Under the pieces are notes generated by a model, which saw nothing but the letters and a program-made list of their open reading frames with translations, was not told where the DNA came from and did not search any database. A DNA stretch of 50,907 nucleotides from Anaerolineaceae bacterium (GTDB lineage Bacteria > Chloroflexota > Anaerolineae > Anaerolineales > Anaerolineaceae). The stretch is taken from the NCBI GenBank assembly GCA_017417055.1, contig JAFPZX010000056.1, positions 1 to 50,907 on the forward strand. The letters run 5' to 3'. The translations under genes and the position numbers were made by a program. Below, in pieces: positions 10,379 to 39,993 of this stretch (position 1 is the stretch's first letter; each line of letters opens with the position of its first letter).

Positions 10379-11437
10379 TCAAACTTCCTCGCGTCCTCGA
10401 ATCTTTTTGTAGAAACGATTAAGAAAAGGCTTGTTATCGATTAATTTATGGAGTAACCTTGCTCCATGAATTTCCATGTTTTGCTTCAAAATGGATATTT
10501 CCGGATGATAGCAATAGGTTCTGTACTTGTCTTTTGCTTCCTCAAACCATAAACCGGATTCATCCAATATTTTTATTTCACCGGTTTTAACAAGATTTCT
10601 CAATTCTTTATAATTCTTTTCAGCCATGAAAGTATCTACTTTATTAATAAAAATCATGAAGTCAAATATTTTATCATATTTGTGTCCTGTCATTTTTTGT
10701 AATTCAACATACAAATTTCGTATTGATTTTTGAACTTTAATGAATTTATTAATGTCAGATTGCCAGGTGTGCTGCAGCGAGTTCGGATTATCAGTTCGAT
10801 AAACGCATGTAAATTCATCAATAAAATGCGCATATCCTTTGCTGGCAGCGTAAATACTGAGATACAAATCGTGGTCAAATGTATCTTTGGGAAGAGGTGG
10901 AAAAACTACTTTGTCTGTCCGCCACATATAAGAGGCTGTAGGGGTGGCGCTCATCAGCGCAATTTCTCCTGCATCAATATCCGTTTTTCCGTCCGGTAAT
11001 TTATAGCTTTTGGGATCTAAAGGAATAAATTTCTTCCAATAAGTTTCACCGGCCAGGAAATAAGCGTTTGTAAAGCAAAATGTACAATCCGGATGAGATT
11101 CCATATAATCCACTTGTTTTTGCAGCTTATATTCGTCGATCCAATAATCGTCACCTTCACAAACAGCTATATATTTTCCGGATGCTTTGGCGTAATTGGC
11201 TTTGTCCGGGTTAATTCCCTGAGAATAAATATTTTGGGAATAATATACAGGTTTGATTATTTCCGGATATTTTAATTCATATTCCCTGATAATATCCGCT
11301 GTATGATCCGGCGATGCGTCATCTGAGACAATAATTTCAAAAGGAAAATTTGTTTTCTGCGCTAAAAAACTGTCAAGCGCCTGACGAATATAGTTTTCCT
11401 GATTATAGGCAACACAGCAGATACTTACCATGACCAT
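10379..11437 (-). CDS. Family-2 glycosyltransferase
   Basis: A GT-A fold glycosyltransferase with the usual N-terminal opening VSICCVAYNQENYIRQALDS, the IIVSDDASPD nucleotide-binding segment and an EGDDYW motif that stands for the DxD metal site. These enzymes transfer a sugar from a nucleotide-sugar to a surface glycan or lipid carrier. I place the start at 11437, where an AAGGACAGG-like site precedes ATG and the protein begins MVMVSICC. The open frame extends 13 codons further to 11476 with no ribosome-binding site. The C-terminal 100 residues are not recognisable. The gene is AT-rich compared with glgC and plsC. No other glycan genes adjoin it. Confidence 0.85.
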   Translation of the reverse strand: MVMVSICCVAYNQENYIRQALDSFLAQKTNFPFEIIVSDDASPDHTADIIREYELKYPEIIKPVYYSQNIYSQGINPDKANYAKASGKYIAVCEGDDYWIDEYKLQKQVDYMESHPDCTFCFTNAYFLAGETYWKKFIPLDPKSYKLPDGKTDIDAGEIALMSATPTASYMWRTDKVVFPPLPKDTFDHDLYLSIYAASKGYAHFIDEFTCVYRTDNPNSLQHTWQSDINKFIKVQKSIRNLYVELQKMTGHKYDKIFDFMIFINKVDTFMAEKNYKELRNLVKTGEIKILDESGLWFEEAKDKYRTYCYHPEISILKQNMEIHGARLLHKLIDNKPFLNRFYKKIRGREEV

Positions 11438-11509
11438 GATTTTACCTGTCCTTATTCTCTCATATAATCTCATCATAATTATATATCAAAAATGGTATCT
11501 GATTTGAAT

Positions 11510-11571
11510 GAGTCAAAACGGTTTTTTTCGTTGCTGCTGTAATGAGTCAGCAGGAAAGGCCGCTTTGACTC
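11510..11571 (+). repeat. GAGTCA/TGACTC palindromic repeat, copy 2
   Basis: GAGTCA occurs at 11510-11515 and 11544-11549, and TGACTC at 11566-11571, followed by GGCACTG. The inner copy (11544-11571) matches copy 1 closely in its last 12 bases. Confidence 0.7.
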
Positions 11572-11681
11572 GGCACTGGGCAATTGCCAAAAAATTGCTT
11601 TGCAAAACGAAGGATAAGAGACAAAACTCCTTGAATCGTAACCATATCTGTGAAAACAAAAGAGTCGTGACTTTCGTATTA

Positions 11682-11710
11682 TTGACTTTTTGACATGCTG
11701 AAGCTATAAT
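11682..11710 (+). promoter_or_regulatory. Promoter of the iron-type ABC importer
   Basis: TTGACT (11682-11687) and TATAAT (11705-11710) are exactly 17 bases apart. The leader that follows holds two small hairpins (CCCTCAAAGGGG and CGGCGAAATGCCG) and an AAGGAG ribosome-binding site before the ATG at 11782. Confidence 0.8.
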
Positions 11711-11781
11711 TGGTAATTACAAAGCCCTCAAAGGGGAAATTCGGCGAAATGCCGGGAAAATCATTATAAGGAGAAAGTGTT

Positions 11782-12861
11782 ATGAAAAAAGTATTAGCTC
11801 TTGTTCTTATTGCACTGATGGTTCTGGTTAACGGAGCCATGGCCCAGTCTGAAGAACTGATCGCTGCTGCCAAGGCAGAAGGCGAACTGGTTGTTTACGG
11901 TTCCTGCGAAGAAGAATATCTCTCCGCCGCCACCCAGCACTTTGAAGAACTCTATGGTATCAAGACAACTTATCAGCGTCTTTCCACCGGTGAAGTTCAG
12001 GCTAAGATCGAAGAAGAAAACGGCAACCCTTCCGCTGATGTCTGGTTCGGCGGCACGACCGATCCGTACAACGTGGTCGCTTCCGAAGGCCTTCTCGAAG
12101 CCTATGCTGCAGAAAACGCTGCCCATCTGACCGGCCCGATGTACAAACATGCGGACAACTACTGGTTCGGTATCTACAAGGGTATCCTTGGCTTCATGGT
12201 CAACCAGGAAGAACTGGACCGTATGGGCATCGCAGCTCCGCAGGATTGGGCTGACCTCCTGAAACCCGAATACAAGGGCCTGATCTGGCTGTCCAACTAC
12301 AACACCGCCGGCACCGCGAAACTGGTCATCAACACCATGATCCAGAAATACGGACACGATGAAGGCATCCAGTACCTTGTCGATCTTGACAAGAACATCG
12401 AAGTCTACACCAAGTCCGGTTCCGGCCCGTCCAAGAACGTTGGTACCGGTGAATGTGTTGTCGGTATCGGCTTCCTGCACGATGGCATCACCCAGATTCT
12501 GGACAATGGCTATGACAACATCGCCCTCGTGATCCCGTCCTCCGGCACTTCCTTCGAAATCGGCGCAACCGCTATCTTCAAGGGCGCTGCCCATCCGAAT
12601 GCCGCGAAACTGTGGATCGAATATGCACTGTCTCCGGAATGTGTTGAACTTGGTGCCCAAAACGGTTCTTATCAGTTCCTTGTCCTGGACAATGCCAAGC
12701 AGCCGCAGGCCGCTTATGACTTCGGTCTGGATCCGGAAAACGTGATGGACTATGACTTCGAAGACGCCACTGCCAACATCAAGACATACGTTGGTGAAGT
12801 GATGGAAGCCCTTGCCAACTCCGGCGCGGAAACCGGCGAAGATCGTTTCCAGACGAAATAA
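11782..12861 (+). CDS. Iron(III)-type ABC transporter substrate-binding protein
   Basis: A 359-residue secreted binding protein with a classic signal peptide (MKKVLALVLIALMVLVNGAMA, cleaved before Q). The mature part follows the FbpA/AfuA/FutA pattern (LVVYGSCEEEYLSAA, then PSADVWFGGTTDPY and HPNAAKLWIEYAL). Members bind ferric iron, or sometimes other small anions or metals, for ABC import; the ligand here is inferred from the family. Codon use is strongly biased to C- and G-ending codons, suggesting high expression. It is followed by a strong terminator, then a four-helix-bundle cassette, and only then its permease and ATPase. This would favour much more binding protein than transporter. 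Confidence 0.88.
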   Translation: MKKVLALVLIALMVLVNGAMAQSEELIAAAKAEGELVVYGSCEEEYLSAATQHFEELYGIKTTYQRLSTGEVQAKIEEENGNPSADVWFGGTTDPYNVVASEGLLEAYAAENAAHLTGPMYKHADNYWFGIYKGILGFMVNQEELDRMGIAAPQDWADLLKPEYKGLIWLSNYNTAGTAKLVINTMIQKYGHDEGIQYLVDLDKNIEVYTKSGSGPSKNVGTGECVVGIGFLHDGITQILDNGYDNIALVIPSSGTSFEIGATAIFKGAAHPNAAKLWIEYALSPECVELGAQNGSYQFLVLDNAKQPQAAYDFGLDPENVMDYDFEDATANIKTYVGEVMEALANSGAETGEDRFQTK

Positions 12862-12872
12862 CTTTTAGAAAA

Positions 12873-12903
12873 AAAGATGGCGGAGTATTCCGCCATCTTT
12901 TTT
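12873..12903 (+). terminator. Strong terminator after the binding protein gene
   Basis: A perfect 12-base stem AAAGATGGCGGA / TCCGCCATCTTT with loop GTAT is followed by T residues. It lies between the first gene and the rest of the importer genes and should limit read-through. Confidence 0.9.
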
Positions 12904-12905
12904 AT

Positions 12906-13370
12906 AAATCGGAAATCAGAAATCTGAAATCGGAGGAGAAGTGTTACCCGTATATTGGGATAATAAAGATAATCCTGTTGTCAATAAAAGCAAGGCTTTC
13001 GCACTTCGAATCATTGAATTGTATAAATATCTTACTGATAAGAAGCAGGAGTATGTCATATCAAAACAGATTCTGCGCAGTGGGACAAGTATCGGCGCAA
13101 ACATAAGGGAGGCACATCGGGGATTAAGTGATTCTGATTTCTATGCAAAACTCACGATTTCACTAAAGGAAGCAGATGAAACAGCCTATTGGCTGGAACT
13201 TTTGTCCGAAAGTCGGTTCTTGACAAAAGATGAATTCAACAGTATTTATCAGGATTGCGAAGAACTTATCCGACTGTTGGTTTCGATAACAAAACACAGA
13301 AACGATAAAAAACAGAAATAATTTATTTCTGGTTTCCGATTTCTGATTTTCGATTTCTGATTTCCGATTT
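12906..13370 (+). mobile_element. Candidate four-helix-bundle cassette 1 with inverted word arrays
   Basis: A left array (12906-12935, built of AAATCGG, AAATCAG and AAATCTG words) and a right array (13323-13370, built of the reverse complements) flank a single gene. Positions 12906-12924 and 13352-13370 are a perfect 19-base inverted repeat, and the pairing continues imperfectly inward. The left array supplies the GGAGG ribosome-binding site of the gene. The stop codon lies inside a short palindrome (13313-13331). No transposase is present. The cassette lies between genes of one importer. Calling it mobile is inference from the repetition of the same arrangement at 24841-25557. Confidence 0.6.
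12941..13321 (+). CDS. Four-helix-bundle protein (23S rRNA IVS protein family)
   Basis: A 126-residue protein starting at GTG 12941, five bases after GGAGGA. It carries the family signature LRSGTSIGANIREA (about residues 46-59) and the typical all-helical layout FALRIIELYKYL, FYAKLTISLKEADETAYWL and EELIRLLVSI. The family (TIGR02436, related to the proteins encoded in 23S rRNA intervening sequences and to the Avd proteins of diversity-generating retroelements) forms pentameric bundles. Its cellular role is not established. There is no reverse transcriptase or variable repeat in the window, so an Avd role is unlikely. The second copy at 25091 has the same motif but is clearly divergent. Both sit between inverted word arrays. 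Confidence 0.88.
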   Translation: MLPVYWDNKDNPVVNKSKAFALRIIELYKYLTDKKQEYVISKQILRSGTSIGANIREAHRGLSDSDFYAKLTISLKEADETAYWLELLSESRFLTKDEFNSIYQDCEELIRLLVSITKHRNDKKQK

Positions 13371-13386
13371 TATTAAAGGAGGTCCT

Positions 13387-15102
13387 ATGGCAGCAAGAAC
13401 CCGTCAGGGGGCAGATCTTGACCGCAAAAAACTGATGGCGGACCCGATCATGGTCACGACTATCTGTGTGCTGATTGCCTTCCTGACCTTATTTATTCTT
13501 TATCCGCTCGCCATTCTGCTGGTTGACAGCTTTGTTGGCGACGGAGGCTTTTCATTTTCCGTTTTTCAGCGGATTTTCGCCATGCCCAATTTTATCCGGG
13601 CAATCACCAATACGCTCAAAGTCGGCTTTGTGGTAGGCTTGCTCTCGACTTTTGTCGGACTTCTTTTCGCGTATGTGGAAGTATATGTACGGCTGAATAA
13701 ATTTGTTGGCGGATTGTTCCAGGTGGTTTCCATGCTGCCCGTGGTTTCCCCGCCGTTTGTGCTTTCCCTTTCCATGATCATGCTTTTCGGGAAAGCCGGT
13801 ATCATTACCCGTCATTTGCTCGGGATCTATGATAACAGCGTGTATGGGTACTGGGGAATTGTGATCGTCCAGACCCTGACCTTTTTCCCGGTCTGTTACA
13901 TGATGCTCAAAGGTCTGCTGAAAAATATCGATCCCTCTTTGGAAGAAGCTGCCCGGGATATGGGCGCCAGCCGCTGGCGTGTTTTCGGCGATGTGACCCT
14001 GCCGCTGCTGCTGCCGGGTCTTGGCAATGCCTTTTTGGTGACCTTCATTGAATCGATCGCGGACTTCGCTAACCCAATGCTGATTGGCGGTTCCTATGAC
14101 ACACTGGCGACCACGATTTACCTGCAGATCACAGGCGCCTACGATAAAGCCGGTGCGGCTGCTATGGCTGTCGTCCTGCTGTGTATCACCCTGCTGATGT
14201 TTGCGGTACAGAAATATTATCTGGAAGCCAAGACCGCAGCCACGCTGACCGGGAAAGCTTCCCGTGCCCGCATGCTGATGGAAGACAAGAGCGTCAAGAT
14301 TCCGCTCACGGTTCTGTGCGCACTGGCCGCGATTTTTGTGATTTTGATGTATATCTGTGTACCGATCGGGTCCTTCTTCCCGACCTGGGGACGGAAATTC
14401 TTCCCGCTCACCGGCAAATGGTACGAGCTGGTCTTTACCCGGTATAAAGGCTTCAAGGCCTTCAAAGACTCCTTTGTGTTGTCCCTGATTGCCTCCCCGA
14501 TCACCGCGCTGCTTTCCATGATCATCTCGTATCTCGTGGTCAAACGGAACTTCCGCGGGAAAGGATTTATCGAAGCGGTCTCCATGCTGGCGATGGCGGT
14601 CCCGGGGACGGTACTCGGTGTGGGGTATATCCGCGGTTTTTCCGGCGGTGTGTTCCATACAGGCTTTTTACAGGGGATTTACGGGACAGGACTGATCCTG
14701 ATCATCGTGTTCATTGTCCGTTCCCTGCCGACGGGGACCCGTTCCGGTATTTCCGCGCTGCGGCAAATCGACAAATCCATTGAGGAGTCTGCTTATGACA
14801 TGGGCGCGGACAGCTTCAAGGTCTTTATGACGGTCACGCTGCCGCTCATCAAAGATTCCTTCCTTTCCGGCCTTGTGACCTCGTTTGTCCGCTCTATTAC
14901 GGCAATTTCCGCGATCATCCTGCTTGTGACGCCGCAGTTCCTGCTCATCACGGTGCAGATCAACGAATTTGCTGAAAAGGGTTCCTACAGCCTGGCCTGT
15001 GCATTTGCAACGATACTGATCATCATCACCTACGGTGCCGTTCTGCTGATGAATCTGTTCACGAAATACTTCGGCACCAGCAGAAAGATCAAGGAGGATT
15101 AG
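13387..15102 (+). CDS. Iron-type ABC transporter permease, fused two-domain
   Basis: The 571-residue membrane protein contains two BPD_transp_1 permease domains in one chain, as in FbpB-like iron(III) permeases. Each has an EAA loop that contacts the ATPase: EEAARDMGASRWRVF near residues 180-195 and EESAYDMGADSFKVF near 462-477. About twelve hydrophobic segments are visible. A strong AAAGGAGG site precedes the ATG. The gene overlaps nothing and is followed after 2 bases by the ATPase gene, so the two are translated together. It is separated from its binding protein gene by a terminator and a four-helix-bundle cassette, whose right array ends 16 bases upstream of this start. Confidence 0.9.
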   Translation: MAARTRQGADLDRKKLMADPIMVTTICVLIAFLTLFILYPLAILLVDSFVGDGGFSFSVFQRIFAMPNFIRAITNTLKVGFVVGLLSTFVGLLFAYVEVYVRLNKFVGGLFQVVSMLPVVSPPFVLSLSMIMLFGKAGIITRHLLGIYDNSVYGYWGIVIVQTLTFFPVCYMMLKGLLKNIDPSLEEAARDMGASRWRVFGDVTLPLLLPGLGNAFLVTFIESIADFANPMLIGGSYDTLATTIYLQITGAYDKAGAAAMAVVLLCITLLMFAVQKYYLEAKTAATLTGKASRARMLMEDKSVKIPLTVLCALAAIFVILMYICVPIGSFFPTWGRKFFPLTGKWYELVFTRYKGFKAFKDSFVLSLIASPITALLSMIISYLVVKRNFRGKGFIEAVSMLAMAVPGTVLGVGYIRGFSGGVFHTGFLQGIYGTGLILIIVFIVRSLPTGTRSGISALRQIDKSIEESAYDMGADSFKVFMTVTLPLIKDSFLSGLVTSFVRSITAISAIILLVTPQFLLITVQINEFAEKGSYSLACAFATILIIITYGAVLLMNLFTKYFGTSRKIKED

Positions 15103-15104
15103 TT

Positions 15105-16181
15105 ATGGCAAAAATGAAAAAGGGCGTACGGCTCGACCATATTTCAAAAATCTATCAGGACCCGAAGACAGGCAAAGATTTTTATGCGGTGAAAGATACT
15201 TCACTGGAAATCGAACCGGGTTCTTTTGTGACGCTGCTGGGTCCCTCCGGCTGCGGAAAAACAACGACGCTGCGCATGATCGCCGGTTTTGAAAGCCCGG
15301 ACGAAGGAGAAATTTACATCGGTGATGAAGCTGTCAATGAACTGACTCCGAACAAACGCGATACCGCTATGGTTTTCCAGAGCTATGCGCTGCTGCCTCA
15401 TTACAATGTTTTTGATAATGTGGCATATGGGCTGAAACTGCGCAAGATGCCGAAGGATGAGATACGCAGGCGTGTGATGGGCATGCTGAAACTTGTCGGT
15501 CTGGAAGGCATGGAAGGACGTATGACGAACCAGCTTTCCGGTGGCCAGCAGCAGCGCGTGGCGCTGGCTCGTGCCCTGGTGATAGAACCATCCGTTTTGC
15601 TGTTTGATGAACCGCTTTCCAACCTGGATGCCAAGCTCCGTGTATCCATGCGTACCGAGATTCGCCGCATTCAGCAGGAAGTTGGTATTACTGCGATTTA
15701 CGTGACTCATGACCAGTCCGAAGCCATGGCGCTTTCCGACAAAATCATCATCATGGAAAAGGGTGTGGTCGCCCAGATGGGCAACCCGCAGGAGATTTAC
15801 TATCACCCGAAGAGCGAATTCGTCGCGGACTTTATCGGTGAGGCAAACTTCCTCAAGGGTCCGATGATCGGCCGTGACGGAGACTACGTAACACTTAATA
15901 TCGAGGGAAATCCGGTCAAGGCAGTTGGCAATGCGGGGATGGAAAAAGGCAAAGATTATACCATTGTCCTCCGTCCGGAAGCCGCAACCCTTGCCGATAA
16001 CGACGGGCTGCCCTGCACAGTTGTGCTCTCCTGCTTTATGGGTTCCTATCAGAATTACCATGTGATGGTTGGCAATACCCTGGTGAAGCTTGAAGAACAT
16101 AATCCAAAGACCAAACACATTTACAATGTCGGTGACAAATGCTGTCTGGTCTTCGCCCCGGAATCCGTCCACGTGCTGTAA
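15105..16181 (+). CDS. ABC transporter ATP-binding protein (iron/spermidine type)
   Basis: A 358-residue ATPase of the FbpC/PotA group that powers the preceding permease. It has Walker A GPSGCGKTTT near residue 46, a Q-loop FQSYALLPH, the signature LSGGQQQRVALARAL near 144-158, Walker B LLFDEPLSNLD and the switch YVTHDQSEAMAL. A C-terminal TOBE-type extension (about residues 240-358) includes VLRPEAATL. AAGGAGG lies just before the ATG, inside the end of the permease gene. A perfect rho-independent terminator follows, closing the operon. Confidence 0.93.
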   Translation: MAKMKKGVRLDHISKIYQDPKTGKDFYAVKDTSLEIEPGSFVTLLGPSGCGKTTTLRMIAGFESPDEGEIYIGDEAVNELTPNKRDTAMVFQSYALLPHYNVFDNVAYGLKLRKMPKDEIRRRVMGMLKLVGLEGMEGRMTNQLSGGQQQRVALARALVIEPSVLLFDEPLSNLDAKLRVSMRTEIRRIQQEVGITAIYVTHDQSEAMALSDKIIIMEKGVVAQMGNPQEIYYHPKSEFVADFIGEANFLKGPMIGRDGDYVTLNIEGNPVKAVGNAGMEKGKDYTIVLRPEAATLADNDGLPCTVVLSCFMGSYQNYHVMVGNTLVKLEEHNPKTKHIYNVGDKCCLVFAPESVHVL

Positions 16182-16202
16182 AACATCAATTTTGCAAATA
16201 AG

Positions 16203-16231
16203 ACGGAGGGCGTTCGTTCCCTCCGTTTTTT
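16203..16231 (+). terminator. Rho-independent terminator of the importer operon
   Basis: ACGGAGGG (16203-16210) and CCCTCCGT (16219-16226) form an 8-base perfect stem followed by a T run. Confidence 0.9.
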
Positions 16232-16275
16232 ATGTAAATACATGGTGACTATTCAGAATGTACCTGTATATATAC

Positions 16276-16304
16276 TTGTTAATTTGCAGCAATTCAGCTA
16301 TAAT
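16276..16304 (+). promoter_or_regulatory. Promoter of toxin-antitoxin pair 1
   Basis: TTGTTA (16276-16281) and TATAAT (16299-16304) are 17 bases apart, just upstream of the antitoxin gene. Confidence 0.65.
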
Positions 16305-16335
16305 ATCATCAGGTCATTTGAGGAAGGAATTAATT

Positions 16336-16590
16336 ATGCTGCAGATCAGTCCGATTTCAGATTTACGAAATTATACCGAAGTTTTGAACGAAGTGGATAC
16401 ATTTGGACGCGTTTATTTAACACGGAATGGCAGGGGTGCCTATGCGATCATGACAATTGAAGAGGCTGAGGAATTAGACCGTCTAAAAGCAGCTTATGCT
16501 GTTGTTTCTGAGCTGAAAAAGTCAGAGGAGCGTGGACATCGCGAAGGCTGGATCAGTGACAAAGAGATTCGGGAAGACATGGGTATTTGA
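16336..16590 (+). CDS. Type II antitoxin, Phd/YefM family
   Basis: An 84-residue protein beginning MLQISPISDLRNYTEVLNEV, the usual N-terminal DNA-binding fold of Phd/YefM antitoxins, with VYLTRNGRGAYAIMTIEEAE. The C-terminal half is charged, as expected of the toxin-neutralising tail. I chose the ATG at 16336 because AGGAAGGA lies 7 bases upstream and the promoter falls inside the longer open frame. The toxin gene begins 2 bases after the stop. By analogy with the family the complex should repress its own promoter. Confidence 0.88.
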   Translation: MLQISPISDLRNYTEVLNEVDTFGRVYLTRNGRGAYAIMTIEEAEELDRLKAAYAVVSELKKSEERGHREGWISDKEIREDMGI

Positions 16591-16592
16591 CT

Positions 16593-16916
16593 ATGAAAGA
16601 TATCGTTTATTCTCCGGATTACCAGGAAAAGATACGTGAACTTCGGATCTGGCTGGACTTTAAGTTTGGAGAAGATATTCGGAAAAAGGTTTTAAATAAA
16701 ATCGATCAAAAAATTCATTCACTTCAAACTTTTGAAAACCTCGGTGCTTCGATTTGTGATTTGTATGGAATCGATACAGATTATCGGGTCATCCATGCTG
16801 AAAAAAATTATATTTTTTACAATACTGATGAAAAACAGATTTATATCTTGAATATGTTTAATGAGCGCGAAGATTACATGCGGAAAATGTTTGGGGTAAA
16901 TTGGATCGATTTGTAG
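16593..16916 (+). CDS. Type II toxin, RelE/ParE family
   Basis: A 107-residue protein with the RelE/ParE fold pattern: KDIVYSPDYQEKIRELRIWL, a central GASICDLYGI and the C-terminal DYRVIHAEKNYIFYNTDEKQIYIL strands. RelE-type toxins cleave mRNA on the ribosome and ParE-type toxins poison gyrase. The sequence alone does not decide which applies. It is coupled to the upstream antitoxin (2-base spacing). The start is the ATG at 16593; a TTG two codons upstream overlaps the antitoxin stop. Confidence 0.85.
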   Translation: MKDIVYSPDYQEKIRELRIWLDFKFGEDIRKKVLNKIDQKIHSLQTFENLGASICDLYGIDTDYRVIHAEKNYIFYNTDEKQIYILNMFNEREDYMRKMFGVNWIDL

Positions 16917-16947
16917 GAGAAAATGGAAGAGATATTAATCCACTGAA

Positions 16948-16984
16948 ATACCGGGGACAGTCCCATAAAGGGGCAGTCCCCGGT
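16948..16984 (+). repeat. GGGGACAGTCCC hairpin, copy 1
   Basis: CCGGGGACAGTCCC and GGGGCAGTCCCCGG form a stem around ATAAA. Outside it, GATATTAATCCAC and GTGGATATTAATC form a further imperfect inverted repeat. Related hairpins occur at 32875, 39088, 39142 and 39765. Confidence 0.75.
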
Positions 16985-16997
16985 GGATATTAATCGC

Positions 16998-17025
16998 AAA
17001 AGAGCAGCCATGCGGGTTCTCTTTT
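16998..17025. terminator. Bidirectional terminator between toxin and pyrophosphatase genes
   Basis: AAAAGAG (16998-17004) and CTCTTTT (17019-17025) give a stem with A and T tails on both strands, between convergent genes. Confidence 0.5.
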
Positions 17026-17063
17026 CTAACCACTAACTAACAACTACTTACTACTAACCACTC
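17026..17063 (-). repeat. Post-stop word array (TAGTTAGTAGT class)
   Basis: On the minus strand the array begins flush with the stop codon of the pyrophosphatase gene: TAA is followed by GAGTGGTTAGTAGTAAGTAG and further TAGTTAG words. Confidence 0.6.
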
Positions 17064-18674
17064 TTATCCCCACAAATCGGTAAGCATGGGAATGATTTGT
17101 TTCTTGCGGGACATGACACCCGGGAGGAAGACCATATTGTCTTTCGGTTCCATCTGGAAGGCATTGCGGATGATGTCATCCGGACCCTGATAGAGCAGAT
17201 AGGTTCCGCCCAGCAGCACATCGGTGACCATCAGCAGGATAAAGGAATAGCCCCGTTCTTTTTCGATTTCGGACATGATCTTCAGCAGTTCATCTTTCCT
17301 TTCCATCAGGCTTTCAGAATCGTAACTGGTGATCTGTCCAACGCCGAACTTCTGATCCGCCATATAGAATTCTTTAAGGTCACGGACAGCGATATCTTTC
17401 AGGCTGGCCTGTTCATGGTAGGAACTGGAGAAGAGCTGGTGTCCGATCTCATCCAGCGTGATGTTTCCGATGCGGGCGAGCCGTTCGGCCATGGCGATGT
17501 CGCGCTTGGTGCAGGTCGGTGATTTGAACATCACAGTATCGGACAAAATCGCTGCGGCCATCAACCCCGCCAACTTTGGCGAAGGCAGTACGCCATGCTG
17601 CTGGAACATCTCGGCGATGATGGTGTTGGTGGAACCGACCGGTTCGTTGCGGACGCGGATCGGCTGCCTCGTCTGGATATCCGCCAGACGATGGTGATCA
17701 ATGATCTCTAAAATTTCCGCCTGCTGCAGGCCCGGAACGGATTGCGCCATCTCGTTATGGTCCACCAGGACGACTTGTTTGCGCCGCGGACGCAGCAGGT
17801 GATAGCGGGAAAGGGTTCCGACGACTTTTTCATTTTCATCCAGCACCGGATAAGTTGCGTTCCGGCTCTCGTACATCTTGTCGCGGACGTCATCAATATA
17901 ATCCGTCAGATGGAAACAGGTGATGCCCTGCGTCCGGCAGTGACGGGAAATCGGTATGGCCTGTATGATCTGTGATGCGGTGTAGCGGGCGTCGAACGGC
18001 GTGGCAATGATGATGGTCTGGCCCGGATCCACGATCCATTCGGGTTTGATTTCCGACTGGCAGATGATCAGACATTCCACATCCATGTCCAGTGCTCTGC
18101 GGATCATCTCCGGCTGGCTGCCGCAGATGACAATGCTTTGGGATGTGTTGAACAGCAGAGATTCCAGATCCTGCGGCAGTGCGATGACAATTTCACCTGA
18201 AATCGTGCTCTTTTCCGGCACCTCTGCCACCAGCCGTCCCTCAAGAACGCTCAACAGGTTGAAGATTGGGATGGAATCGATCCGGCCGCTTTCGTTAGCC
18301 TGCATGTTATAGCCGGTGATGTTCGCAGCGCTCAGCATGCCGTAAAGCGTACCATCCTCATTGATGACGGGGATGTTTTCAATGCCCTGCTCCTGGATCG
18401 TGTCCCAGGCGCGGTCAATGGTCACCGTGGCGTTCAGCGCGGGCGGCGTGTCGAAGTCGAGATCGCTGATCTGTGTGCGGACATCCCGCAGCCGCATGGG
18501 TTGTTCAAAACCAAAGAATTTCAGGATGCGTTTTGTGTCATCATTGACGTGATCCTGACGGGCGGCAATATAATTACGGTCGCCGAGAGCATTTCGGAGC
18601 GATGCGTATGCGATCGCGGCAACCACAGAATCGGTATCGGGATTCTTATGACCGGTGACATATATCTCGTTCAT
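17064..18674 (-). CDS. ppaC: Manganese-dependent inorganic pyrophosphatase with CBS/DRTGG insert
   Basis: A 536-residue family II pyrophosphatase, hydrolysing PPi to phosphate in the cytoplasm. The DHH phosphoesterase half starts with YVTGHKNPDTDSV (H9, D13 and D15 are metal ligands) and has EIIDHHRLADI later. The C-terminal DHHA2 region includes LLMVTDVLLGGTYLL and the SRKKQIIP substrate-binding segment. The long insert contains two CBS halves (IENIPVINEDGTLYGMLSA and NATYPVLDENEKVVGTLS) around a DRTGG domain. This is the nucleotide-regulated form that responds to adenine nucleotides and diadenosine polyphosphates. GGAG lies 8 bases before the ATG. The upstream region is filled with tandem repeats, so the promoter is unclear. 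Confidence 0.95.
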   Translation of the reverse strand: MNEIYVTGHKNPDTDSVVAAIAYASLRNALGDRNYIAARQDHVNDDTKRILKFFGFEQPMRLRDVRTQISDLDFDTPPALNATVTIDRAWDTIQEQGIENIPVINEDGTLYGMLSAANITGYNMQANESGRIDSIPIFNLLSVLEGRLVAEVPEKSTISGEIVIALPQDLESLLFNTSQSIVICGSQPEMIRRALDMDVECLIICQSEIKPEWIVDPGQTIIIATPFDARYTASQIIQAIPISRHCRTQGITCFHLTDYIDDVRDKMYESRNATYPVLDENEKVVGTLSRYHLLRPRRKQVVLVDHNEMAQSVPGLQQAEILEIIDHHRLADIQTRQPIRVRNEPVGSTNTIIAEMFQQHGVLPSPKLAGLMAAAILSDTVMFKSPTCTKRDIAMAERLARIGNITLDEIGHQLFSSSYHEQASLKDIAVRDLKEFYMADQKFGVGQITSYDSESLMERKDELLKIMSEIEKERGYSFILLMVTDVLLGGTYLLYQGPDDIIRNAFQMEPKDNMVFLPGVMSRKKQIIPMLTDLWG

Positions 18675-18720
18675 GTTTGTTCTCCAGCGGGGAAAATTTA
18701 CAGCACCCCATAAAATTATA

Positions 18721-18960
18721 AATCAGAAATCAGAATGGATTGGGACTTGGGTCTTGGGACTGGGGGAGTAAGAAGTAAGGAGTAAGAAGAAAAATCAGAA
18801 ATTGGAAATGGATTGAGACTTGGGTCATGGGACTGAGGGAGTAAGAAGTAAGGAGTAAGAAGAAAAATCAGAAATCAGAAAGGATTGGGACAGGGGACTT
18901 GGAACTGGGAACTTGGGTCGGGAGGCTGGAAGAGTGTGCTGAGGAAAATCGGAAATCAGA
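18721..18960 (+). repeat. About 73-bp tandem repeat of degenerate words
   Basis: Units begin with GGATTGGGACTTGGG-like text at 18737, 18810 and 18882, so the period is 72-73 bases, with about 2.5 copies. Each unit combines three word classes: AATCAGAAATCAG, GGGACTTGGGACTGGGG and AGTAAGAAGTAAGGAG. A decayed fourth part runs to about 18960. No gene is present in 18675-19101. Confidence 0.8.
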
Positions 18961-18981
18961 AATTTTTGGAAGGGAAACGGA

Positions 18982-19045
18982 GCACATGCGGGACAGATAC
19001 CCGGTGTCGCGTAAGCCGACACCGGTGTGTCTGTCCCGCATGTGC
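18982..19045 (+). repeat. Long stem-loop, GCACATGCGGGACAG class
   Basis: GCACATGCGGGACAGA (18982-18997) pairs perfectly with TCTGTCCCGCATGTGC (19030-19045). An inner CGGTGTCG/CGACACCG stem closes a GTAAG-type loop. A related stem-loop lies at 42681-42797, which shares the GGAGCACAT start and a GCGAAGCCGACA apex. Confidence 0.8.
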
Positions 19046-19075
19046 GTCTCTAAGGATCTGAATCGTTATATAAAA

Positions 19076-19100
19076 AAAGCAGACTTCTAAAGTCTGCTTT
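19076..19100 (-). terminator. Terminator of tRNA-Val
   Basis: AAAGCAGACTT (19076-19086) and AAGTCTGCTTT (19090-19100) form a perfect 11-base stem. On the minus strand the hairpin is followed by a T run and begins 1 base after the tRNA 3' end. Confidence 0.9.
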
Positions 19101-19101
19101 G

Positions 19102-19175
19102 TGAGCGGTAATGGACTCGAACCATCGGCCTTTGCGATGTCAACGCAACGCTCTAACCAACTGAGCTAACCGCTC
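19102..19175 (-). tRNA. tRNA-Val (anticodon GAC)
   Basis: On the minus strand the acceptor arms GAGCGGT and ACCGCTC pair. The D arm is AGCTCAGTTGGTTAGAGC, and the anticodon stem TTGCG/CGCAA closes the loop TTGACAT with anticodon GAC. The T arm contains GGTTCGAGTCC. The discriminator base is A, and CCA is not encoded. A terminator hairpin follows immediately, so it is transcribed alone or as the last unit. Confidence 0.95.
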
Positions 19176-19239
19176 GAACAGACAATATTCTATATCAACT
19201 TCCAAAAAAAAGCAAGTATTTTGAAGAAATTTGTGACTC

Positions 19240-19617
19240 TTGAAAATACCAATAATTAATGGTATGCTGTATGTAGAAAAAATAACTCAGGGATATAAAA
19301 GCAGTGAGGAAATGGAGGAATTGGCAGCTATGACAGAAGGAATGCTGAACTTTGCAAAACAATATAATATAGCGATCAATGATCCGCTGTTGGTAAGACG
19401 GTACCAGATGGATCAGGATGCCAAGCGTGAAGAAGCCTTCAGATTGTCACTTGCGGAAACGAAAGGTTTTACACGGGGCGAAGAAAAAGGGGCGAAGAAA
19501 AATGCAAAAAGGCAAATCAGCTTGAAAATGCCCGGCGGATGAAAGCGGATGGAATGGATCCCGTGCTGATTGCCAAATATACCGGTCTTCCGGAGTCTGA
19601 AGTATTACAGCTTTAAT
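19240..19617 (+). pseudogene. Remnant of Rpn/PD-(D/E)XK nuclease-family transposase, frameshifted
   Basis: The frame from 19240 (INGMLYVEKITQGYKSSEEM, then NFAKQYNIAINDPLLVRRYQ, ending near MPGG) resembles the C-terminal part of Rpn-family nuclease/transposase proteins. A shift in the A/G-rich run around 19480-19510 restores the family's usual ending in another frame: MKADGMDPVLIAKYTGLPES, stopping at about 19617. The catalytic N-terminal domain is absent, so this is a dead fragment. The following stretch, 19618-19783, holds nothing I recognise. Confidence 0.6.
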
Positions 19618-19783
19618 TTTTGTCCGGAATTACGAATATCGAATCAGTCTTTTTTATTGATTCGCCTCCGCAGGTTCTGTTTGGCAATCAGATTGTATTC
19701 GGGAACAAGTTATTCGCTGCATACGATATTGCATCATTACAATACTTGCTGTACCCACAACAGCATCAATAAACATGTAAAAA

Positions 19784-19943
19784 GGGGATGTCGCACATAA
19801 TTATATAGGAAAGCCTGCCGGAGGGAATGCTTCGCAGGGACGCGGCAAGGCAGCGCTGCTCGCCGCACCACTGCGAAGCAAATGCTCTTGATGGCAGTTC
19901 AAAAAATGGCTGCCGTAAAATAAAAAAAATGTGCGACAGCCCC
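19784..19943 (+). mobile_element. 160-bp MITE-like element with TGTCGCACAT ends
   Basis: GGGGATGTCGCACAT (19784-19798) and ATGTGCGACAGCCCC (19929-19943) are inverted repeats matching at 14 of 15 positions. Inside, GCTTCGCAG and CTGCGAAGC form a second stem, GCGGC/GCCGC a third, and AGCGCT an apex palindrome. There is no open reading frame. The ends look like those of an insertion sequence, so this is probably a non-autonomous derivative, but no parent element is visible here. Confidence 0.65.
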
Positions 19944-19944
19944 C

Positions 19945-19981
19945 TCTAACAACTACCAACTACTAACTACCAACCATCCAC
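19945..19981 (-). repeat. Post-stop word array (TAGTTAGTAGT class)
   Basis: On the minus strand the arcC stop TAA is followed directly by GTGGATGGTTGGTAGTTAG and more TAGTTGG words, then by the 160-bp element. Confidence 0.6.
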
Positions 19982-20935
19982 TTACTTCGTGATCCGGGTT
20001 CCGGTTTCACCATGGATTGCACGGAGAATGTTTTCCGGATTGGTGATGATGGCTTCCTTGCCGCCGGCTTCCAGGAAATTGATGATAGCCTGGATCTTCG
20101 GAGCCATGGAGCCCTTCTTGAAGTGGATCCCTTCCGCCATATAAGCCTTGGCTTCTTCCAGTGTCATGGTGTCCAGCCATTTCTGTTCCGGGGTCCCGAA
20201 GTTGATGGCGACTTTTTCGACCGCGGTGGAAATCACCAGCATATCCGCTTTCAGGTTCTGCGCCAACAGACTGTTGCCGAAGTCTTTGTCGATCACAGCC
20301 GCGATCCCTTCCAGCGTTCCGTCTTCGTGTTCGATCACCGGGATGCCGCCGCCACCGATGGAAACGACGATGATTCCGGCTTTGATGAGTGCTTCAATGG
20401 CATCCAGCTCGACAATGCGTTCCGGGAGCGGTGAAGGAACCACACGGCGCCAGCCGCGGCCCGCGTCTTCCACAATGGTCCAACCCAATTCTGCGGCTTT
20501 GGCCTTGGCTTCCTTTTCCGTCATAAAACCGCCGATCGGTTTTGTCGGATTCTGGAAAGCGGGATCATTTTTATTGACAATGGTTTGTTCGATTACGCAG
20601 GCTGCCGGTTTGTTGATTCCGGCCTTCTTCATCTGGTTCTGCAGACACTGTACAAGCTGATAACCGATCTGACCCTGACTCTGGGCGCCGCAGACATCCA
20701 GCGGAGCCATGCTGAGGCTCGCTGTTTTTTCCGCGATTTCCGCTTTCTGAAGCAGGAATCCGACCTGCGGACCGTTCCCGTGTCCAATGACCACATCCCA
20801 GCCTTCTTTAATCATTTCAACGATATGCTTTGCGGTTTCATCAGCGGCAAGGTATTGATCCTGCACAGACTGATGTGCCTTATCCTTGATCAGAGAATTA
20901 CCACCGATGGCAATGACTGCAACTTTTTTCGACAT
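19982..20935 (-). CDS. arcC: Carbamate kinase
   Basis: The 317-residue protein is a carbamate kinase, which makes ATP from carbamoyl phosphate and ADP while releasing carbamate. Family motifs are VAVIAIGGNSL at the N-terminus, IGHGNGPQVGFLLQKAE, PTKPIGGFMTEKEA and VVSIGGGGIPVIEHEDG. GAGGGG lies about 8 bases before the ATG. It is the last gene of a minus-strand run with an aminotransferase (42 bases upstream) and glutamate dehydrogenase. The same locus has aspartate carbamoyltransferase and a cyclic amidohydrolase on the other strand. A fermentative route ending in carbamoyl phosphate is therefore plausible. Confidence 0.95.
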   Translation of the reverse strand: MSKKVAVIAIGGNSLIKDKAHQSVQDQYLAADETAKHIVEMIKEGWDVVIGHGNGPQVGFLLQKAEIAEKTASLSMAPLDVCGAQSQGQIGYQLVQCLQNQMKKAGINKPAACVIEQTIVNKNDPAFQNPTKPIGGFMTEKEAKAKAAELGWTIVEDAGRGWRRVVPSPLPERIVELDAIEALIKAGIIVVSIGGGGIPVIEHEDGTLEGIAAVIDKDFGNSLLAQNLKADMLVISTAVEKVAINFGTPEQKWLDTMTLEEAKAYMAEGIHFKKGSMAPKIQAIINFLEAGGKEAIITNPENILRAIHGETGTRITK

Positions 20936-20977
20936 GTATTACCCCTCTCTTTTCCCCGGAAATCCGGAAATTAATTA

Positions 20978-22048
20978 TTATTTTTTGATCAGCGGCAGCA
21001 GCAGCGCAAAAGCCTGCTCCATTTCTTCCGGTGTCAGTCCGCAGAACGGGACACGCAGGAAGCGTTTACCGTCTTCACGGTTCAGATAGAATCCGCGGCC
21101 ATCTGTGATCAGAACGCCGGCTTCCTTCGCTGCGGGGATCAGTTCTTCCATATCGTTCCCTTCCGGGAGCGTGACACCGATAAAGAAACCGCCTTCCGGA
21201 CGCGGGAAAACCGCACCCGGCAGTTCCTTTTCAAGGATCTCAATCGCCTTTTCCATACGCGGGCGGTACAGATCCTTGAGCTTGACAAGATTGGGTTCAT
21301 AGTAACCCATTTTAATAAATTGATACAACAGCGCCTGTGTCGGGCTGACAGGACCGATGTAGGTGTTGCCCGCCCAGGTCTTGACACGGCTGATGAAGTC
21401 TGCGGGGCCGTTCAGATAGCCGAGACGCATGCCCGGAGCCAGCGTTTTGGAGAAGGAGCTCATCTTGACCACATGTTCCGGATCCATGGAATACATGGTC
21501 GGGATATCTTCGCCGCGGTAGCGCAGTTCACGGTACGGTACGTCTTCCAGAATCATGAAGTTATACTGCTGCGCCAGTTCGACGATCTTCTTCCGTTTTT
21601 CGAGCGAGACGGTCACGCCCATCGGGTTCTGAAAGTCATCTACGGTATAGAAGAATTTCGGAGCGCCGCGCTTAAGTTCATCCTCAAAACGGTTCAGATC
21701 TACCCCGTCGATTTCCAGCGGAACACCGACCGCGTTCAGTCCGCGGCGTTTGAAGAGCAGATTCACCCGGTCATAGGACGGGGTTTCCGTCAATACCTTG
21801 TCGCCCTCCGCGGCTTCGGTCATGGTAATGAACTGGATGAACTCCAGCGAGCTGTTGCCGATGAGGATGTGATCCGGTGAAACGCCTTCACGCTCCGCGA
21901 TCAGGTCGATCAGCGGCATATAACCCGGGGAAGCGACATATCCCAGCGCTTTGCGTCCGTCCTCCCGCATTGCCTTTTCGAATGCCGGGATGATTTCATC
22001 TATCGGAAATGATTCCGGGGCGGGAACCCCGCGTGTCATAGCTATCAT
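20978..22048 (-). CDS. PLP-dependent aminotransferase, class I/II (LysN-like)
   Basis: A 356-residue fold-type I aminotransferase related to 2-aminoadipate/aromatic aminotransferases. Visible features are LGYVASPGYMPLIDLIAERE at the N-terminus and the QNPMGVTVS segment with the PLP-contacting Asn near 141. ILEDVPYRELRY contains Asp169, SSFSKTLAPGMRLGY contains Schiff-base Lys201, and RVPFCGLTPEEME contains the carboxylate-binding Arg. AGGA lies 9 bases before the ATG. It lies between glutamate dehydrogenase and carbamate kinase, which suggests coupling of amino-acid transamination to glutamate turnover. The exact amino donor is not predictable. Confidence 0.88.
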   Translation of the reverse strand: MIAMTRGVPAPESFPIDEIIPAFEKAMREDGRKALGYVASPGYMPLIDLIAEREGVSPDHILIGNSSLEFIQFITMTEAAEGDKVLTETPSYDRVNLLFKRRGLNAVGVPLEIDGVDLNRFEDELKRGAPKFFYTVDDFQNPMGVTVSLEKRKKIVELAQQYNFMILEDVPYRELRYRGEDIPTMYSMDPEHVVKMSSFSKTLAPGMRLGYLNGPADFISRVKTWAGNTYIGPVSPTQALLYQFIKMGYYEPNLVKLKDLYRPRMEKAIEILEKELPGAVFPRPEGGFFIGVTLPEGNDMEELIPAAKEAGVLITDGRGFYLNREDGKRFLRVPFCGLTPEEMEQAFALLLPLIKK

Positions 22049-22136
22049 AATAATAATTCCTGCCTGTTTTTGTAAAGAATATACAGCCTAATTATATATA
22101 TTCTTTTCCAGACAACCCCTCATTGCGTGACAAATC

Positions 22137-22226
22137 GAAGTAAGAAGTATGGAGTATGAAGTAAAGAGTAAGGAGTGGTAAATTACAGTCCCTAACTCCT
22201 CACTCCTAATTCCTAACTCCTAACTC
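22137..22226 (-). repeat. Gene-less inverted word array after gdhA
   Basis: On the minus strand the gdhA stop TAA is followed at once by GAGTTAGGAGTTAGGAATTA and similar words (22189-22226). A reverse-complement-like array follows after about 10 bases (22137-22178; AAGTAAGAAGTATGGAGT on the plus strand). The two arms pair imperfectly. This resembles the four-helix-bundle cassettes without the gene. Confidence 0.65.
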
Positions 22227-23513
22227 TTATTTTATCCATCCCCGGTATCGCATGGCGTCGGCCACACGCTTGATGGAGACCATGTAAGCCGCGTCGCGCA
22301 TGTAGGCCTTTTTGTCGACGGACATCTCATAGACCGAGTTGAATGCTGTGGTCATCTTGTAGTCCAGCTTTTCCAGGACTTCTTCCACGGACCAGTAATA
22401 GTTCTGGTCGTTCTGAACCGATTCAAAGTAGGAACAGGTCACGCCGCCCGCGTTGCACAGGAAATCCGGAATGATGAACATGCCGCGTTCCCGCAGAACC
22501 ACGTCGGCTTCCAGTGTGGTCGGACCGTTGGCAGCTTCGGCAACGATTTTTACATTCTTGCCGATGAATCCGACGTTTTCACCCGTGATCTGTTTTTCCA
22601 GCGCGGCCGGGATCAGGACGTCCACATCCTGTTTGATCCAGTCTTCTCCGTCCAGAACCTGATAGCCTGCCTCGGCAGCCTTTTGATTGGAGACTGTTCC
22701 ATAACTGTCGGTGATGCTCATCAGGAATGCGGGATCAATTCCATCTTCCTTTAGAAACGTGAAGGATTTTTTCTCATCCCGGTTCCAGCAGGAAACACAT
22801 TTGACCTTCCCGCCCAGCATCTTGATAAAGTGGATGGCCGCGTACTGGGCTACATTGCCGAAGCCCTGGATGGCAGCGCTCGTTTTGGTGGAGTCGATGC
22901 CGAGCTGCTTCATCGCTTCCCGGATGCAGATCACCACTCCCAGACCGGTTGCTTCATTCCGGCCGAGCGAACCGCCTCCGCCGACCGGTTTGCCGGTGAC
23001 GGTGCCCGGTGTGTACTGTCCGGCCAGGAGTGAGTATTCATCCATGAACCAGCACATATCCTGAGCGTTGGTCCCCATGTCCGGCGCGGGAACATCATTT
23101 CGGGGCCCGAAAATCGGGAACAGCGCGCGGACATATCCGCGGATCAGCCGTTCCTTTTCTCCAGCGGAAAGGTCCCGCGGGTCCACGACAACGCCGCCCT
23201 TCCCGCCGCCGAGCGGAATGTTAGCGACCGAGCATTTCCAGGTCATCTTCATCGCCAGCATACGGACGGTGTCGATGGTTTCGTTTGCGGCAAACCGCAA
23301 ACCGCCTTTGTTCGGTCCCAAAGCATCATTATGCTGTACACGGTATCCGTCAAAGATCTTCAATGATCCATCGTCCATTCGTACCGGAATGCGGACATGA
23401 TATTCCTTTTTGGGATTACGCAGAAAATCACGTGCTTCGGCATCCAGATCAAGTAAATCTGCTACATGATCAAATTCCTGCTGAGCAATTTCATAAGCAT
23501 TGTTTACTGACAT
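22227..23513 (-). CDS. gdhA: Glutamate dehydrogenase (Glu/Leu/Phe/Val family)
   Basis: A 428-residue dehydrogenase interconverting glutamate and 2-oxoglutarate plus ammonia. The substrate domain holds GGLRFAANETIDTVRMLAMK, PLGGGKGGVVVDPRDLS with the catalytic-region lysine, and APDMGTNAQDMCWF with the active-site Asp. The Rossmann domain has AIQGFGNVAQYAAIHF. I chose the ATG at 23513 with AAGGAG 9 bases upstream, since the open frame to 23594 adds residues not found in the family. It heads a minus-strand run with the aminotransferase and arcC and diverges from pyrB across 386 bases that hold inverted repeats. The size matches catabolic hexameric enzymes of anaerobes, but the cofactor is not determined. 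Confidence 0.93.
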   Translation of the reverse strand: MSVNNAYEIAQQEFDHVADLLDLDAEARDFLRNPKKEYHVRIPVRMDDGSLKIFDGYRVQHNDALGPNKGGLRFAANETIDTVRMLAMKMTWKCSVANIPLGGGKGGVVVDPRDLSAGEKERLIRGYVRALFPIFGPRNDVPAPDMGTNAQDMCWFMDEYSLLAGQYTPGTVTGKPVGGGGSLGRNEATGLGVVICIREAMKQLGIDSTKTSAAIQGFGNVAQYAAIHFIKMLGGKVKCVSCWNRDEKKSFTFLKEDGIDPAFLMSITDSYGTVSNQKAAEAGYQVLDGEDWIKQDVDVLIPAALEKQITGENVGFIGKNVKIVAEAANGPTTLEADVVLRERGMFIIPDFLCNAGGVTCSYFESVQNDQNYYWSVEEVLEKLDYKMTTAFNSVYEMSVDKKAYMRDAAYMVSIKRVADAMRYRGWIK

Positions 23514-23604
23514 TTTATTCTCCTTGATTTTTCTGCAGCAGCCGATGCTGTGAAACCAATCACAGAACCGAACTGACAGTTTGCTATATTGCAAATTTTA
23601 ACCG

Positions 23605-23633
23605 CAATTGTCTGACAACATAATTGACAATTG
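23605..23633. promoter_or_regulatory. Inverted repeat (operator candidate) between gdhA and pyrB
   Basis: CAATTGTC (23605-23612) and GACAATTG (23626-23633) are perfect inverted repeats 13 bases apart. A second near-palindrome, TTGCTATATTGCAA, lies at 23581-23594. On the minus strand a weak -35/-10 pair for gdhA overlaps this area. No regulator gene is nearby. The rest of 23514-23899 shows nothing further. Confidence 0.45.
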
Positions 23634-23899
23634 TAATGAATAAACGCCGCTTTTGTAATATTTCGTTTTTGCCGGATCGGATACCAAATACCAATTGGAG
23701 GGTTAATATTCCCGGTTTCGCCGGTATTGCTGTGTCGCCGCACTGAGTCCAGTAATCGGTATATGCAGTAAATTCCTGTGTTCCTGTCCAATAATTATAA
23801 AAAATCCAATAACAGATTTATAATTTACTCCAGAAAAATTCAAATTTCCCGGTTTCTTTGAGGAGCCGAGGAGATGAAAAAACAAGGAGAATATTAACT

Positions 23900-24835: not shown

Positions 24836-24939
24836 AAATAGTGAGGAGTTAGGAGTTAGGAGTGAGGAGTGAAAAATATGCTCTCACTCCTTGTCTAATC
24901 CGGTTTTTTAATAAACGTATCTGTTCAACTCTGACTCTA

Positions 24940-25031
24940 AGGAAACAATGATTAATTGAGGTTCGGGGACGGTTTTGCGAGAAGCGCAGAACTGTCCTCC
25001 AGTCTTTTCAGAAATTAATCAGCGTTTCCCT
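24940..25031 (+). repeat. MITE-like repeat, GGGGACGG core, copy 2 (best preserved)
   Basis: AGGAAACAATGATTAATT (24940-24957) and AATTAATCAGCGTTTCCCT (25013-25031) are terminal inverted repeats. The core is a stem of GGGGACGGTTTTGCG against CGCAGAACTGTCCTCC. Confidence 0.75.
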
Positions 25032-25090
25032 AAGAATATTGTTTCAGTCGGTGTTTTGAAATAATGGGAATAACCAAATAAGGATCAGAA

Positions 25091-25495: not shown

Positions 25496-25558
25496 TTGTG
25501 AATGAAGTGTTTTGTCCGGAATCACTCCTCACTCCTAACTCCTCATTCCTAACTTCTT

Positions 25559-26965: not shown

Positions 26966-27015
26966 TTAGTAGTTAGTAGTTGACAGTGGCCAGTGGTCAG
27001 TGACTGGTGACTGGT
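26963..27015 (+). repeat. Word array containing the amidohydrolase stop codon
   Basis: TGTAGTTAGTAGTTAGTAG supplies the stop codon and is followed by CAGTGGCCAGTGGTCAGTGA and CTGGTGACTGG words. Confidence 0.6.
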
Positions 27016-39942: not shown

Positions 39943-39993
39943 TGTCTGATCCCTGAAACCTGAAACCTAAAACCTGTTATAAGGAGGATATGG

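Follow-up and report, generated by a model that had tools for sequence, protein, structure and literature searches.

A four-helix-bundle gene between inverted arrays of seven-letter words: a probable mobile element of bacterial operons

Introduction

Proteins of the PF05635 family are found in many phyla and, lacking an assigned function, still go under the names "four helix bundle protein" or "S23 ribosomal protein". The closest described residence of their genes is the intervening sequences (IVS) of 23S rRNA, where the gene of S23p, a PF05635 protein, lies inside a stem-forming inverted repeat; according to the accessible parts of PMC4990558 these units have no transposase, are called selfish elements and possess a 28-bp stem subject to cleavage by RNase III. 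Other systems share separate features with the locus considered here. In the REPIN system inverted short repeats frame a gene and gene-less copies are dispersed; REP/REPIN sequences accompanied by RAYT (Y1) resemble our elements in both respects. MITEs are small non-autonomous inverted-repeat elements with target duplication. Avd proteins of DGR have a four-helix-bundle fold.

Tandem words of 7 nt form one more related subject. The heptameric repeats of cyanobacteria are designated STRR; like TAACTGA, GGGAATC and GGGGA(C/T)T repeats they are, as far as the available portions of their descriptions go, tandem, intergenic and often located near gene ends. Over-representation of heptameric repeats in bacterial genomes has been reported without a settled cause, and detailed literature on them is said to be absent in the accessible text of PMC4692102. 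For the TAACTGA repeats a repeat-binding protein was raised by MacGregor as their possible mobile part, and translational regulation was proposed as their role (PMC4679880, available sections). In the open-access PMC literature we found no link between the PF05635 family and heptads, which may be in print elsewhere, and no earlier description of a general class in which a bundle gene is combined with inverted word arrays.

The locus analysed here belongs to a 50,907-nt stretch of Anaerolineaceae DNA, called the window. The original prediction, made from its letters, considered a PF05635-type gene framed by inverted words as a possible self-contained element whose only protein is the bundle protein.

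The element of the window and its protein

Positions 12906–12924 and 13352–13370 are exact reverse complements over 19 bases, precisely as predicted, against a longest inverted match of 13 in 2,000 letter shuffles of both gaps; if mismatches are allowed, the arms extend to 29 nt with 90% complementarity (12906–12934 and 13342–13370). They are indeed built of degenerate AAATC-type words, tandem AAATCGG/AAATCAG/AAATCTG on the left and their complement on the right. Array and inverted-repeat analysis gave about four 7-nt words in the left arm (AAATCGG, AAATCAG, AAATCTG and again AAATCGG; 12906–12934), and array analysis gave 6.6 words, ATTTCTG or ATTTCCG, in the right one (13325–13370; all features of the window are given on the + strand). 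The gene between them (12941–13321) has a GTG start and codes for 126 amino acids. The left arm ends within its Shine-Dalgarno-like GGAGGAG (12932–12938, read by eye), and the supposed supply of the ribosome-binding site by this arm is therefore true only in part. The stop codon, which was expected to have its own palindrome, lies inside one of 13 nt. The arms enclose the bundle gene only; a transposase gene, the mark of an insertion sequence, is absent between them, in agreement with the prediction.

The assumed position between a binding-protein gene and its permease was also correct. The upstream neighbour is a solute-binding protein with SBP_bac_6 as the best match, and downstream there is a BPD_transp_1 permease followed by an ATPase with ABC_tran and TOBE_2 domains. 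Thus the site is located between two ABC-transporter genes and not in 23S rRNA; the Rfam scan of positions 11000–26500 at gathering thresholds returned tRNA alone and no rRNA. Complementary stem-forming ends are nevertheless common to this element and rRNA IVS. RNA folding of the element gave a z of −6.1 with paired arms, which mainly restates the inverted repeat, since it is the repeat itself that accounts for most of the folding energy. A terminator-like hairpin of the upstream binding-protein gene (12870–12903, from inverted-repeat analysis and congener junctions) is also present in four orthologous junctions; it is the target side of the insertion, outside the element.

Assignment of the protein to the 23S-IVS-protein family was fully borne out by profiles PF05635 (101.4 bits with a curated cut-off of 33.8, E 4e-29) and TIGR02436 (111.5 bits with a cut-off of 24, E 2e-32). 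Its AlphaFold model (pLDDT 91.7) has four helices, and Foldseek gave 2RLD as the closest PDB entry (E 7.5e-10, TM 0.84/0.97). The X. campestris protein 2GSC was returned as well. For both solved relatives chains A–E are listed, and we take it that the family forms pentamers. Weak structural matches were obtained with 4DWL, 8UBE and 8UB7, that is, with Avd of DGR. The ratio dN/dS ranged from 0.07 to 0.18 in 8 of 12 family gene pairs, with three pairs saturated in dS, and was 0.92 in the near-identical pair L289/L296, where it comes from very few changes; judged by these substitutions, the bundle gene is evidently under purifying selection.

A family match was registered in 34 of 61 related genomes, including that of the window, and exceeded the curated cut-off in 31 of the 61. 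The window genome itself has five family genes, each with an inverted match of 7-nt words (scores 14–24) and each with a different word; the left arrays of loci L001 and L004 are short and comprise fewer than three words. The closest relatives of the window protein among the genus proteins compared (73% and 70%) reside at another site, where a similar word, AAATAAG, is used.

Occupied and empty sites

The prediction implied empty sites in relatives, and they were found. In four congeners both neighbours of the window element are present, with the permease N-terminus 93–99% identical, and the gene is in none of these four junctions. Three of them contain gene-less heptad hairpins: G005 has an array pair with the same word as the window, G006 and G013 have hairpins with other words (all words were compared by eye). 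In G012 a GC-rich repeat pair takes the place of the element. This junction (L039) has two copies of a long GC-rich repeat, and G012 has similar sequence at its L002 site too.

The comparison covered fifteen sites in five genomes, L005 and L065 being without an orthologous junction elsewhere. Empty junctions, measured between aligned flanks give or take a few unaligned flank bases, had lengths of 15, 12 and 23 nt at the L058 site (101 in G000), 6, 48, 73 and 39 nt at the L066 site, 21 nt at the L007 site in G006, 33 nt at the L009 site in G012 and 55 nt at the L061 site. At the L001 site the gene is present in three species, and two have gene-less hairpins with other words; at other junctions, such as that of the L002 site, unrelated sequence fills the gap. 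A YhcG nuclease gene (DUF1016 and PDDEXK; L137, G000:C98) with a heptad array on its 5′ side occupies the L007 site, where a congener carries the family gene. It was considered as one more framed element and rejected: the array is one-sided, and its inverted partner was not found.

Plasmids of cyanobacteria (Nostocales) provided six junctions with both occupied and empty versions. One of them is occupied in Trichormus variabilis plasmid C and in a Scytonema plasmid and is empty in plasmids of Aulosira, Nostoc linckia, N. carneum and Fremyella. Occupied and empty plasmids are 97% identical here over aligned pieces, and the empty AAAAAGTAATTAACAAA is converted into AAAAAGTAAT-unit-GTAATTAACAAA, which is a 5-bp duplication of GTAAT. 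At the second site (occupied in Nostoc ATCC 53789, C052 and N6, empty in three plasmids) the 5-bp TTCTA is found on both sides and covers the upstream stop codon. Such a clean target duplication is present at two of the six sites; the other four also have occupied and empty versions, in less similar sequences whose borders do not allow a duplication to be called. In 50 kb of the Trichormus plasmid there are no heptad arrays other than the two arms, and two empty plasmid pieces have none; both arms arrived with the gene as one block. When three 50-kb plasmid pieces were searched for insertion polymorphisms of gene-less arrays, the known element was the sole heptad indel. The ends of the elements are ragged, unlike classical terminal repeats. 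Gene and arrays are present or absent as a block in intergenic gaps, and based on the occupied and empty plasmid alleles together with the 5-bp duplications at two of six sites one can conclude that the unit moves. The idea of an element is thereby supported; its self-containedness is not, since the catalytic enzyme was not identified.

There are also gene-less hairpins whose ends are of this kind. One lies within a family gene: in the Nostoc N6 plasmid (L301) this gene is interrupted by a hairpin of the same word, around which a clear target duplication was not found. Between the arms of this nested hairpin a sequence resembling the end of an IS605-type element was noticed by eye. Two related plasmids of Nostoc ATCC 53789 (L303 and L287) have different family elements at neighbouring junctions and are reciprocally empty.

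Inverted arrays around family genes

An excess of inverted arrays around family members was foreseen in the original prediction. It was evaluated on 94 loci with 78 distinct family genes and on 80 organism-named loci from many phyla (the best 80 of at least 589), containing 84 family genes, 80 of which had enough flank. In total 157 family genes were scorable, with 367 further ORFs from these loci as controls, which are contaminated because a neighbour gene shares an arm with the family gene. Inverted-match scores of at least 14 were obtained for 91 of the 157 family genes and for 15 of the 367 other ORFs, a strong excess; when left arms were matched with right arms taken from different loci, 0.9% of 1,500 draws reached this score. 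Both flanks were 7-periodic in 95/157 family genes versus 36/367 controls and 8-periodic in 12/157 versus 5/367, and periods 4, 5, 6 and 9–12 were found in 0–1 of 157 each. Thus most of the 157 family genes have inverted 7- or 8-nt arrays with a locus-specific word; at 14 of them an array is absent.

A held-out set was assembled after the rules had been fixed. It combined 31 loci from viral contigs with nine from plasmids, the latter inspected previously, and gave 37 non-identical proteins with enough flank, some of them near-duplicates; a single-protein viral-contig query yielded one already known locus, which was excluded. Arms with a period of 7 or 8 were registered in 29 of the 37 (other periods in 0–1), and the inverted score was at least 12 in 33. 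Two loci deserve mention for their genomic environment: in Picosynechococcus (L290) a family gene with 8-nt words stands between Cas10/Cmr2 and Cmr3 of a CRISPR-Cas operon, and in Pseudanabaena (L285) between cas6 and cas4, also in a CRISPR-Cas operon.

Words follow proteins

The word could be defined for 114 of the 157 elements (102 with period 7 and 12 with period 8). Its similarity increased from 0.46 at protein identity below 35% to 0.76 above 70% (14 pairs), and below 60% identity the rank correlation between words and proteins was 0.17, a value reached by none of 500 permutations. For 45 cross-phylum elements the word similarity to the nearest protein neighbour (mean identity 59%) was 0.569 against 0.482 ± 0.017 (0 of 2,000), and for 24 held-out loci 0.537 against 0.478 ± 0.020 (7 of 2,000), in tests from which shared descent is not fully removed. 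By these sequence comparisons word and protein similarity go together. Proteins starting roughly with DFRxLxVWEKSH, from records under the names Chloroflexota, Planctomycetota, Bacteroidetes, Geothrix, Opitutaceae and Methylobacillus, often have words near NAGCNNT; neighbours using words like AGTTNT are exceptions. Since non-coding arms of about 35 nt keep the word between proteins that are about 55–60% identical, a function of the word is suggested.

The number of words per arm has its peak at five (41 of 114 left and 45 of 114 right arms), which was stable over four extension thresholds. A profile-free count gave 33 left arms with five words and 36 with six, and 40 and 28 right arms, respectively. 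Taken over all G006 arrays, word numbers are higher and more widely spread (median 6.4), under a detection rule that favours long arrays. Supply of stop codons was tried as a cause of periods 7 and 8 and rejected as weak: they were found in 66 of 114 sense words versus 61 shuffled, in 52 versus 33 on the antisense strand and in 91 versus 75 on either.

Gene-less arrays in the window and in other genomes

The window contains a second element with the word AGTGAGG/AGTTAGG; neither its family gene nor the gene-less heptad arrays of the window are mentioned in the original prediction. Its left (24840–24872) and right (25522–25557) arms came from array and inverted-match analysis, and its bundle gene of 134 amino acids (25091–25495) from ORF and profile matches. 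The array scan also detected two opposed gene-less arrays (GAAGTAA... and ...CCTAACT) with a weak inverted match, score 10, at 22137–22226, composite gene-less arrays including the window element's own word AAATCAG at 18720–18909, and further gene-less arrays at 17026–17062, 19946–19974, 26954–27015 and 39952–39976. The composite region 18720–18909 is made of a 73-nt unit of several different heptad words, itself repeated in tandem 2.6 times.

Altogether there are 10 period-7 arrays in the 51-kb window and 66 in 400 kb of G006; with nearly the same rule, seven family-negative genomes gave none in 744 kb, and 80 kb sampled from each of five further family-positive genomes contained 2, 1, 0, 0 and 3. 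Fifteen of 65 G006 arrays matched one of the genome's four own words at 0.75 or better, as compared with a mean of 5.3 and a maximum of 11 for 50 random congener sets and a mean of 0.46 and a maximum of 2 for word sets of other phyla; the mean similarity of the arrays to own words equalled that to congener words. Because the match to own words is only modest, spread of arrays in trans is suggested, not shown.

Three tandem GGGAATC units, searched in 369 genomes of one class, were present in one, and its single family match (partial, profile positions 1–64) is framed by inverted GGGAATC arrays with a score of 22. According to the available parts of PMC4692102, one Xanthomonas genome has 70 inverted pairs of GGGAATC repeats near stop codons on the sense strand, heptamers of Xanthomonas and Nostoc prefer four units, their positions are mostly common to two Xanthomonas species, and a general association with mobile elements is lacking. 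Shared positions and the lack of this association disfavour frequent movement in Xanthomonas, and together with the four-unit preference they lowered our estimates both for a mobile word-reading element and for the wider class discussed under the implications. Accessible descriptions of heptameric repeats do not name the bundle gene, and there the TAACTGA repeats are nearly all direct and GGGAATC prefers four units; here, in contrast, each locus has a word tied to its own gene, and the unit is mobile.

Proposed mechanism and alternatives

With these reservations included, we consider it likely that the window locus represents a widespread mobile element of about 0.4–0.5 kb, in which a PF05635 gene is combined with inverted word-array ends read by its own protein. 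One bundle-protein gene and two inverted arrays of 7- or 8-nt words, commonly five per arm, would constitute the whole element. A ring of five bundle proteins may read an arm on single-stranded or hairpin nucleic acid, and we infer one word per subunit. Such reading would mark the ends of the protein's own element and those of gene-less copies, and the staggered cut and joining would be performed by an enzyme supplied in trans. Insertions would be retained in intergenic positions immediately downstream of a stop codon, where a transcript stem is tolerated and perhaps trimmed like rRNA IVS. Spread driven by reverse transcriptase was rejected: the occurrence of PF00078 in the genus does not parallel that of the family, the window genome has a single match on another contig, and the enzyme is absent in two of five family-rich congeners (G006 and G013). 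In this lack of linkage the bundle genes differ from DGR. Unlike MITEs, the elements end in word arrays that have no fixed terminus, and most of the copies studied contain a protein gene.

A passive insert processed at the RNA level is possible, though on the unlikely side: its arms would pair in mRNA, and RNase III would remove the gene-bearing loop. Both the protein family and the stem-with-gene architecture are those of rRNA IVS, and the folded arms are paired, at an energy mostly due to the repeat as such. Orientation of neighbours points in two directions. The upstream gene is co-directional in 106 of 117 armed loci versus 130 of 165 control triples (p = 0.009), as a process in transcripts would have it, but orientation of the downstream gene is unbiased (97/117 versus 133/165, p = 0.64). 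By simple ORF calls, arms of elements with co-directional neighbours begin a median of 3 nt past the upstream stop (n = 89), and the next ORF follows at a median distance of 16 nt (n = 79). Upstream bias and stop-adjacent arms fit survival of insertions in operon gaps and by themselves do not prove an RNA step. Location in protein operons, tandem-word arms, the 5-bp duplication at two plasmid sites and dispersed gene-less copies separate our elements from 23S rRNA IVS, and RNA processing leaves the 7/8-nt arrays, the covariation of word and protein, the scattered gene-less arrays and the target duplications unexplained.

Rather unlikely is a regulatory role, in which the bundle protein acts as a ring-shaped RNA-binding regulator that recognises operator arrays in untranslated regions and also controls its own gene. 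TRAP is a ring-shaped RNA-binding regulator with similar logic. Close contact of the arrays with stop and start codons, five words per arm and the conserved AG in 75 of 114 sense-strand words (CT in 16 of 114) are in line with such a role, as is the translational regulation proposed for TAACTGA repeats in the accessible part of PMC4679880. Occupied and empty alleles and target duplications, however, would demand mobility in addition, and different words are found at the same junction in different species.

In another reading, which we regard as quite improbable, the arms terminate a transposon of the host or a REP-type system, and the bundle gene is its passenger. Each of the five family-rich congeners does have Y1 transposases (as do G002 and, weakly, G011), and gene-less arrays exist, but none of 20 Y1 loci of the genus has 7-periodic arrays on both sides (L147 has them on the left only; some reading frames are incomplete), and many bear their own palindromes. 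Y1 transposase was therefore rejected as the mover: it co-occurs with the family, but its genes are not framed by heptads. The window element, unlike RAYT, has no Y1 domain; moreover, one transposase would hardly recognise so many words, which follow the bundle protein. Y1 genes of this genus (L145–L164) are in many cases framed by palindromes of GGGGACRGTCCC or ACAAGTGTCCC types, which form a separate repeat system. Growth of arrays by replication slippage, proposed for bacterial heptameric repeats in the available part of PMC4692102 and compatible with variable arm lengths, with bundle genes nearby by coincidence, is already disfavoured and very improbable, as both arms are one word in inverted form (0.9% under the null), arms and gene arrived as a block in a plasmid piece without other heptad arrays, family-negative genomes have no arrays in 744 kb and words covary with the protein.

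Implications

The mobile-element reading can be extended, tentatively and with somewhat less than even confidence, to a nuclease-free pentamer as the sole protein of a widespread class of transposable elements, which would read five-word ends by one 7- or 8-nt word per subunit according to a recognition code in which word and protein evolve together. Gene-less arrays would then spread in trans, the excess of heptameric repeats would be explained, and 23S rRNA IVS would be copies that landed in rRNA. Two puzzles, of the bundle family and of the heptameric repeats, are joined in this way: the protein is given a ligand that can be tested, in the form of its own word array, and the repeats a maker that can be tested too. 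If each subunit does read one word, this would be a sequence-recognition code of a new type, and a transposable element lacking a nuclease of its own would be new in kind. The gene with its arrays may, as a unit, help to explain the seven-letter repeats scattered through bacterial genomes.
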